A DNA stretch of 50,573 bases from positions 1-50,573 of the forward strand of contig CACWLL010000013.1 in assembly GCA_902761735.1 (NCBI GenBank). Reading direction: 5' to 3'. The notes beneath the pieces were generated by a model. It was not told where the DNA came from and made no database searches. It saw only the letters and a program-made list of their open reading frames with translations. Positions within the stretch are counted from its first letter, which is position 1. The number at the start of each line of letters is the position of its first letter. This DNA is from an uncultured bacterium (lineage in GTDB: Bacteria > Cyanobacteriota > Vampirovibrionia > Gastranaerophilales > Gastranaerophilaceae). The position numbers were made by a program, and so were the translations under genes. Positions 37,140 to 37,400 of this stretch are shown here, piece by piece.

Positions 37140-37213
37140 GCGCCCGTAGCTCAGCTGGATAGAGCGTTTGGCTACGAACCAAAAGGTCGGGAGTTCGAAT
37201 CTCTTCGGGCGTA
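37140..37213 (+). tRNA. tRNA-Arg (anticodon ACG)
   Basis: A 74-nt cloverleaf: acceptor GCGCCCG/CGGGCGT with a terminal G-U pair, discriminator A, D arm AGCTCAGCTGGATAGAGC, anticodon stem-loop TTGGCTACGAACCAA, and T arm GGAGTTCGAATCTC. CCA is not encoded. Confidence 0.96.
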
Positions 37214-37219
37214 AATAAA
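37199..37219 (+). repeat. 21-bp direct repeat at tRNA-Arg 3' end, proximal copy
   Basis: The end of tRNA-Arg plus a few bases (ATCTCTTCGGGCGTAAATAA and one more) recurs at 37380-37400 with one mismatch, 181 bases away. Confidence 0.92.
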
Positions 37220-37249
37220 TAGACAGGGTTTATCCCTGTCTATTTATTT
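37213..37249 (+). terminator. tRNA-Arg terminator
   Basis: A 16-bp stem from AAATAAATAGACAGGG and its complement with loop TTTAT, starting at the last base of the tRNA. Confidence 0.9.
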
Positions 37250-37400
37250 ATGCTTGAAGATTGATGAGAACTCCAAATTGGAGTTCGGCGCAAGCGAGCC
37301 AAGTGCGGAGTCTTGAGCCTTATTATCAAGCTGTCCGCAGGACAAATAAGGCTCAAGCGGAGTCACGTCGAAGGCGAGCATCTCTTCGGGTGTAAATAAA
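37214..37400. mobile_element. Miniature element-like segment after tRNA-Arg
   Basis: There is no gene. In order it holds the tRNA terminator, the perfect palindrome GAACTCCAAATTGGAGTTC (37268-37286), and the GC-rich core GAGTTCGGCGCAAGCGAGC starting at 37281. Then come a 12-bp-stem hairpin TTGAGCCTTATT...AATAAGGCTCAA (37313-37356) with an inner GTCC-GCA-GGAC, and a second copy of the tRNA 3' end (37380-37400). The organisation matches the segment after tRNA-Gly. It is more GC-rich than its surroundings. Confidence 0.5.
37380..37400 (+). repeat. 21-bp direct repeat at tRNA-Arg 3' end, distal copy
   Basis: Matches 37199-37219 except for one C/T difference. It marks the far end of the segment. 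The bases from here to 37544 are AT-rich and hold nothing I recognise. Confidence 0.9.

Follow-up and report, generated by a model that had tools for sequence, protein, structure and literature searches.

The stretch of DNA analyzed here (the window) was 50,573 nucleotides long and came from an uncultured bacterium of the Gastranaerophilaceae. On its plus strand, a tRNA-Arg(ACG) gene at positions 37140 to 37213, identified with ARAGORN and Rfam, was the host gene of an array. The 3′ part of this tRNA from T-loop nucleotide 58 onward (37198 to 37213, same strand and same programs) formed copy 1 of a repeat. An initial annotation of the window had claimed that the tRNA 3′ end recurred 181 bases downstream, and this was confirmed: ATCTCTTCGGGCGTAAATAAA, at 37199 to 37219, occurred a second time at 37380 to 37400 with 1 mismatch (offset, 181). 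The features between the copies were also on the plus strand. An intrinsic-terminator-like hairpin, AAATAGACAGGG..CCCTGTCTATTT, was predicted in the interval between tRNA-Arg and the unit (37214 to 37250), and it was followed by a left arm, TGCTTGAAGATTGATGAGAACTCC (37251 to 37274), which was antisense to the T-arm and acceptor 3′ strand of tRNA-Arg and was predicted to pair with copy 2. The fold also contained a P2 hairpin (GAACTCC/GGAGTTC, 37268 to 37286), and a type-1 core hairpin (P3; 37287 to 37379) was matched by a covariance model at 37285 to 37389 (66.0 bits, E = 1.1e-15). The second copy of the tRNA-Arg 3′ end, placed at 37380 to 37394 of the plus strand by repeat comparison, was the right end of unit 1, and the similarity ran on to 37400.

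The tRNA-Arg gene carried a second unit, which was 2.9 kb long, decayed, and gene-bearing (37545 to 40296). Inside it was a plus-strand gene for an 825-amino-acid protein with a PRTase-CE domain (37545 to 40022; PF24390, E = 2.7e-6). A type-2 core and the tRNA-Arg 3′ end that follows it as the third copy, both decayed (40150 to 40296, plus strand), were recognized by alignment to the intact copy at locus L223 of genome G003, with 115/158 columns and a score of 66.5, compared to 21 for the best of 300 shuffles. The initial annotation had overlooked this second unit, as well as the inverse relation of the left arm to the T-arm and the long hairpin formed by the core.

On the minus strand, a tRNA-Gly(TCC) gene (17366 to 17441; ARAGORN), whose copy 1 lay at 17366 to 17384, was followed by a terminator-like hairpin (17334 to 17365), a left arm antisense to the tRNA-Gly 3′ end (17307 to 17329), and a P2 hairpin (GAACTCG..CGAGTTC, 17295 to 17314), all three placed by folding. 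The type-1 core hairpin of this unit (17200 to 17294) was matched by the covariance model at 17198 to 17296 (103.6 bits, E = 9e-27). Repeat comparison placed the second copy of the tRNA-Gly 3′ end at 17181 to 17199, and beyond it a second terminator and left arm (17115 to 17180), which represented the truncated beginning of another unit. The duplication at tRNA-Gly that had been described earlier was thus present, but its extent had been understated: the repeat, at an offset of 185, comprised 66 exact bases, or about 78 with 1 mismatch, and ran from the tRNA 3′ end through the terminator and the left arm. ARAGORN also called a suppressor tRNA, tRNA-Stop(tta), at 4667 to 4741. We rejected this call because the loop CTTTTAA and the strong likeness to tRNA-Lys(TTT) made it look like a one-base miscall.

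The units behind tRNA-Arg and tRNA-Gly had been said to share a core in the same orientation relative to their tRNAs, and the window agreed with this. A shared 19-mer, GAGTTCGGCGCAAGCGAGC, occurred at exactly two sites, 37281 to 37299 (plus strand) and 17282 to 17300 (minus strand), in both cases in the orientation of the adjoining tRNA. The expectation was 0.01 matches per shuffled window at up to 3 mismatches, and the window held no further site within 3 mismatches. Both units also folded far above shuffled sequences (z = −8.3 for tRNA-Arg and −8.4 for tRNA-Gly), and in the predicted folds the left arm, directly after the terminator, paired with the second tRNA 3′ copy. For locus L018, the pairing of the left arm with its own tRNA end was computed as a duplex.

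The same arrangement was widespread in the Gastranaerophilales, where many tRNA genes were followed by a folded unit of about 180 bases that ended in the tail of that same tRNA. In relatives from the genus, for example, the core lay behind tRNA-Thr, tRNA-Lys, and tRNA-Arg(CCT), with the tRNA's own end repeated in each case. A home-made covariance model built from eight cores, whose E-values are rough, matched 16 places in the genome from which the window came, 3 to 27 places per genome in 13/13 congeners, and 143 of the 191 genomes of the family. A class-wide search matched 142/289 genomes, with just one match outside the family, and nearly all core-bearing records with a name were Candidatus Gastranaerophilales or Melainabacteria. 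One contig labeled Muribaculaceae (L153) had a typical Gastranaerophilales unit behind tRNA-Lys and was probably misbinned.

To look at tRNA linkage in a sample unbiased by core matches, we used all 42 tRNAs of the window's own genome, 40 of which were testable. Ten of the 40 had a copy of their own 3′ end 131 to 231 nt downstream. The controls yielded no copies upstream, none in antisense, and 1/190 with foreign tRNA ends; together with the shuffle expectation for the 19-mer, this excluded a chance origin of the pattern. In the wider unit sets, which were assembled from core-model matches, a copy was present at 112/211 tRNAs, a set biased toward such matches. The first 143 model matches, a list that counts duplicate views of tandem places, included 63 that were positioned 56 to 96 nt after a tRNA on the same strand, and in 57 of these 63 the tRNA 3′ copy lay past the core, where it was expected. 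Cores lying mostly away from tRNAs and without duplications, the outcome named in the initial annotation as speaking against its proposal, were therefore not what we found. Its central ideas, a multicopy family in which every copy is tied to its own tRNA and a presence that is polymorphic, also held up, the latter as differences between species. The proposed match in size, spacing, and core stood with regard to the fixed spacing and the core, but not with regard to size, which varied because of tandem arrays, gene-spanning units, and several unrelated cores.

Units were carried by at least 17 isotypes (Arg, Ser, Lys, Gly, Leu, Val, Gln, Tyr, Thr, Asp, His, Glu, Ile, Met, Ala, Pro, and Asn). 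The end GGTTCGACTCCCCTCATCTCCA, which we take to be the 3′ end of tmRNA, was used likewise. The genomes were mostly metagenome assemblies, and units were often at contig ends, so arrays will be lost from assemblies. Core-like hairpins without tRNA copies were also seen at the 3′ termini of protein-coding genes, specifically after an EF-G-like gene (L027, L028, and L125) and amid phage-like genes (L120, L128, and L132). Those behind the EF-G-like gene seemed to provide its last codons and formed a tandem pair with a period of 93 to 104 bp.

A unit began with a left arm antisense to its own T-arm, continued with the P2 hairpin and another 5′ half of the T-arm, and closed with the core hairpin ending in CAAGAC and the tRNA 3′ copy; it is predicted to fold into a multibranched junction. 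In one example, the left arm GGGAYGAGAACC was the inverse of the T-arm GGTTCGARTCCC except for two changed loop bases. The junction was defined in a collection of 108 units. Nucleotide 59 of the copy agreed with that of the host tRNA in 103/108 units and nucleotide 58 was A in 100/108, while nucleotide 57 was uncopied; thus, the copy comprised nucleotides 58 to 76 and started within the T-loop. The sequence directly before it was CAAGAC or a close variant. In 78/108 units the match extended for fewer than 20 nt beyond the tRNA, which is unlike a simple tandem duplication, and the remaining 30 were longer tandem repeats. When two genomes shared a tRNA and its unit with more than 120 nt of homology, the homology usually broke off about 10 nt or less from where the second copy ended, which indicated that the right border of the unit is set there. 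The second copy started 153 to 214 nt after the tRNA (5th to 95th percentile).

Several measurements tied the folded parts to the individual tRNA. Permuted tRNA ends paired less well with the spacer than the unit's own tRNA end did (z = −5.9). Of the 4 T-stem bases that precede the core, 2.74 matched the unit's own tRNA, compared to 2.08 after permutation. In the core, all 16 of 16 pairs were retained through double changes and 94.2% were paired, compared to 69.0% in shuffles and 35 to 48% in slid controls, although the alignment had been fitted to the model and the count leans its way. A terminator-like hairpin preceded the left arm in 69/108 units, and an exact GAYGAGAA was present in 66/108. 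At five loci (L055, L070, L076, L079, and L113), a recurrent sequence ending in ..GTGTTAAATTACA, or nearly so, abruptly replaced the left P2/core part at a varying break point, as if another mobile element ended there.

The core and the tRNA-specific parts behaved as separate modules. Core identity was 0.70 for pairs of units behind the same tRNA and 0.68 for pairs behind different tRNAs, whereas the terminator (0.62 versus 0.45) and the P2 region (0.68 versus 0.53) followed the tRNA. We rejected concerted evolution within a genome because core identity was no higher within genomes (0.687) than between them (0.684). The same junction was used by several unrelated cores, such as type 2 (GGATTTGCGG..GCAAATCCAAGAC). 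A third core type of unrelated sequence had the same tRNA 3′ copy at an initiator tRNA (L357) and at tRNA-Ser(GGA) (L372) of genome G000; at L309 and L311 (tRNA-Gly) of this genome, a core of a third kind was likewise seen with the same tRNA 3′ copy.

Comparisons between genomes showed how the units differed from species to species. In 6 of the 12 displayed genomes, no unit could be seen behind tRNA-Arg(ACG). At tRNA-Lys of G165 and G182, unit 1 was identical across 169 nt while the flanks were 81 to 87% alike, an identity that gene conversion or strong constraint might explain, and only G165 had an additional type-2 unit there. G009 and G005 shared a 98% upstream region and an identical tRNA-His unit, and divergence began at the second tRNA copy. 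In the case of tRNA-Lys in G003, copy 1 lacked CCA and had its own terminator, and copy 2 had CCA and a terminator of the type in G012, which counts as a replacement end. A clean empty site whose two flanks both matched was found for the added type-2 unit and was suggested for the third core type; none was found for a type-1 unit.

Some units were accompanied by genes. Related pairs encoding a DUF6973 protein and a small membrane protein lay between two cores at a tRNA-Ser of G007 (L079, 1124 to 2370) and at the tmRNA of G006 (L044, 1743 to 3019), and Fic proteins were encoded behind tRNA-Asp and tRNA-Leu units. The genes that followed the tested arrays were mostly ordinary ones (adk, gyrA, and corC), so cargo is occasional and was ruled out as a general feature of the units. 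No integrase was present among the cargo genes tested.

The initial annotation had called these elements an undescribed class. This did not hold, since the 178-bp repeats of Escherichia coli tyrT (RtT, RF00391) and the tRNA-Pro units of Salmonella and Klebsiella share the anatomy. Behind E. coli tyrV, the 19-nt tail (nucleotides 58 to 76) recurs at +178, +356, and +534 in repeats that Rfam names RtT RNA (rttR), and the Gastranaerophilales likewise have tandem units of about 178 bp that each end in nucleotides 58 to 76 of the adjacent tRNA. The E. coli left arm, GGGGAAGGATGAGAA, is followed by ..AAGGTTCGACTCGAGCG..; it is antisense to its own T-arm and has the motif GGATGAGAA, and a GGTTCGA T-arm half and a core starting with GAGCG are present as well. 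The Gastranaerophilales units similarly combine an antisense left arm containing GAYGAGAA with a branched fold. The tRNA-Pro units are laid out alike, their left arm, GAGGATGAGAACCTC, being specific for Pro, and the RtT folds are predicted to have the outer stem, P2, and multibranching of the Gastranaerophilales units. The likeness in anatomy and short motifs is close. The two groups differ in that the enterobacterial units were at Tyr and Pro only in the records examined, whereas the Gastranaerophilales used at least 17 isotypes and tmRNA and usually had a terminator before the unit; core sequence and fold were also unlike. Rfam families including RF00391 gave no match for the units in the window, in the tRNA-Arg stretch (E ≤ 5), or at L014, L034, and L085 (E ≤ 0.5), compared to 133 to 138 bits in E. 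coli. Covariance models of the enterobacterial and Gastranaerophilales units gave no cross-matches, so homology of the two groups is at most putative, and the E. coli core was set aside as a sequence relative because core model R1 did not match it. E. coli genomes with any RtT had it at a median of 3 places and a maximum of 10. At a Salmonella Infantis tRNA-Pro (L328), two RtT units were followed about 0.9 kb further on by a divergent-AAA (RecG-like) gene, a possible enterobacterial cargo. In the open literature searched, we found no description of a general class to which RtT or tRNA-tail repeats belong.

Two kinds of mobile DNA offered further parallels. As with integron attC sites, structure was conserved over sequence, the predicted fold would rebuild a recombination site, and the units formed arrays of which some were gene-bearing. 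The differences were that there was no attI, that the target was the tRNA T-loop, and that G000 had no integron integrase above the cut-off (its three recombinases scored at most 154.8 bits with TIGR02249, for which the cut-off is 265). In addition, the R′/R″ boxes (RYYYAAC/GTTRRRY) were absent at the hairpin ends, and the junction was CAAGAC^A-N59 rather than G^TTRRRY. Tycheposons carry a recombinase. Tycheposons in Prochlorococcus and tRNA-targeting islands in Methylophilaceae (PMC10872708) likewise have tRNA or tmRNA targets, partial tRNA repeats, and occasional cargo, and here too the tRNA 3′ end was directly repeated at both borders. However, tycheposons are 4 to 200 kb long, as quoted in PMC10872708, whereas the Gastranaerophilales units were mostly 180 bp, gene-free, and without a tyrosine recombinase of their own, for which about 180 bp leaves no room. 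Additive flexible genomic islands, with recurring 20-bp tRNA-Lys repeats and lengths of 330 bp to 42 kb, also have repeated tRNA ends between segments at one tRNA, but no hairpin core or antisense arm was reported for them (PMC10872708).

The explanation that we favor, and to which we give about an even chance, is that the units are RtT-like tRNA cassettes that are inserted into the T-loop by site-specific recombination, perhaps via a folded single-strand site. They would be short, mostly noncoding cassettes seated in the 3′ portion of genes for tRNA and tmRNA. Each would start with a replacement tRNA 3′ end (nucleotides 58 to 76), often followed by a terminator, and would end with the core hairpin (..CAAGAC) abutting the previous tRNA 3′ end. 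The unit, either circular or in the form of a folded single strand, would be joined into the T-loop between nucleotides 57 and 58, presumably by an enzyme acting in trans. The tRNA would stay whole because the unit brings a matching 3′ end, the old end would be displaced about 180 bp downstream, and repeated insertion would create tandem arrays, some of them gene-bearing. The left arm, the T-arm halves, and the tRNA copy may form a branched structure that restores a double-stranded T-arm, much as integron attC rebuilds its site. The observations cover the anatomy, the constant junction, the specificity for the tRNA, the covariation, the differences between species, the arrays, and the occasional cargo; the recombination step, the folded-strand substrate, and the trans-acting enzyme are inferences. 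Several observations count against this explanation. No recombinase was linked to the units: all 13 genomes had at least one tyrosine recombinase, none of them linked, and G000 had only XerC, XerD, and one other. The 30/108 units that were exact tandem repeats could have been made by recombination or by replication slippage. Core-like hairpins also occurred away from tRNAs, after fusA and between phage-like genes. The missing empty site for a type-1 unit, the ordinary genes behind most tested arrays, and the other possible causes of the 100% identity at tRNA-Lys weigh against it too. A bolder version, which we offer tentatively and consider rather less probable than not, is an integron-like system in which the T-loops of the cell's tRNA and tmRNA genes serve as attI; folded units with a tRNA-specific antisense arm would recombine at 57^58, supply a new 3′ end, and build arrays able to carry defense-type genes, and E. 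coli RtT would be the enterobacterial branch.

The main rival holds that the units are structured noncoding RNAs, as RtT is annotated in E. coli, that are cotranscribed with the tRNA and processed; unequal crossing-over and homologous transfer would spread the repeats together with the tRNA genes, and the fold would be kept for RNA function. The strong covariation, which included G-U pairs, is consistent with this idea, as are the annotation of RtT as RNA in both E. coli and Salmonella, the tandem copies in 30/108 units, and an RtT copy number that varies in the manner of tandem repeats (median of 3 and at most 10 places in a genome), of which a 175-bp variable-number tandem repeat in Salmonella is an example (PMC2658671). 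On the other hand, the terminator-like hairpin between tRNA and unit in 69/108 means that many units would be poorly transcribed, core type was independent of the tRNA, several unrelated cores shared one junction, and in 78/108 units the sequence after copy 2 differed from that after copy 1. Duplication alone also leaves related cores behind at least 17 different tRNAs unexplained, and we consider the RNA explanation doubtful, if a serious contender. We regard it as quite unlikely that the units are scars of ordinary tRNA-targeting phages or islands, the 180-bp unit being a remnant att region that lost its interior. Tyrosine-integrase islands usually leave tRNA 3′ duplications as their mark, and mobile- or defense-type genes (PRTase-CE, Fic/SoFic, DUF6973, and IetA-like AAA) followed some units, but random decay would not yield so narrow a unit length (second copy starting 153 to 214 nt after the tRNA), the structure was under selection, and the exact core pattern was in no IMG/VR viral contig. 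A phage or plasmid origin was dismissed on this last result and because phage and plasmid records gave only terminator or chance matches.

Two other mechanisms would produce the copy during synthesis or transposition. In one, reverse transcription or snap-back synthesis with template switching would yield the 18- to 19-nt tRNA 3′ segment and its inverse (the left arm) and capture a core. This agrees with a copy of nucleotides 58 to 76, with a core flanked by sense and antisense T-arm copies, and with the lack of linkage between core and tRNA specificity; we nevertheless hold it to be very unlikely, as terminators past the tRNA end were often copied too (30/108) and the conserved GAYGAGAA sets the left arm apart from a plain inverse copy. 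In the other, a Y1 (IS200/REP-type) transposase would mobilize the hairpin and insert it 3′ of TTCGA. GGTTCGA did precede the core in many units, but 9/13 genomes, including the copy-rich G000, G003, and G012, had no Y1 transposase, which led us to disfavor it as the motor, and a tRNA copy without a core was almost never seen; this mechanism is the least probable of all, to the point of being barely credible. The same scarcity of core-free tRNA copies ruled out insertion of the core into a preexisting pseudo T-arm. Compared to miniature inverted-repeat transposable elements, the units had a repeat that was the host tRNA end rather than a random target, an inverted left arm that was tRNA specific, and no transposase partner in a search for the Y1 family, which was absent from 9/13 genomes.

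Since the early 1980s, to our knowledge, neither an origin nor a function of the 178-bp repeats of E. coli tyrT has gained acceptance. The presence of the same anatomy behind most isotypes in another phylum, together with the tRNA-specific antisense arms, the covarying cores, the polymorphism between species, and the occasional cargo, makes tyrT-type repeats look like a general class of tRNA-borne cassettes, and the question of the origin and function of the E. coli repeats thereby becomes testable. If the recombination explanation is true, tRNA genes would be many parallel capture sites in each genome.
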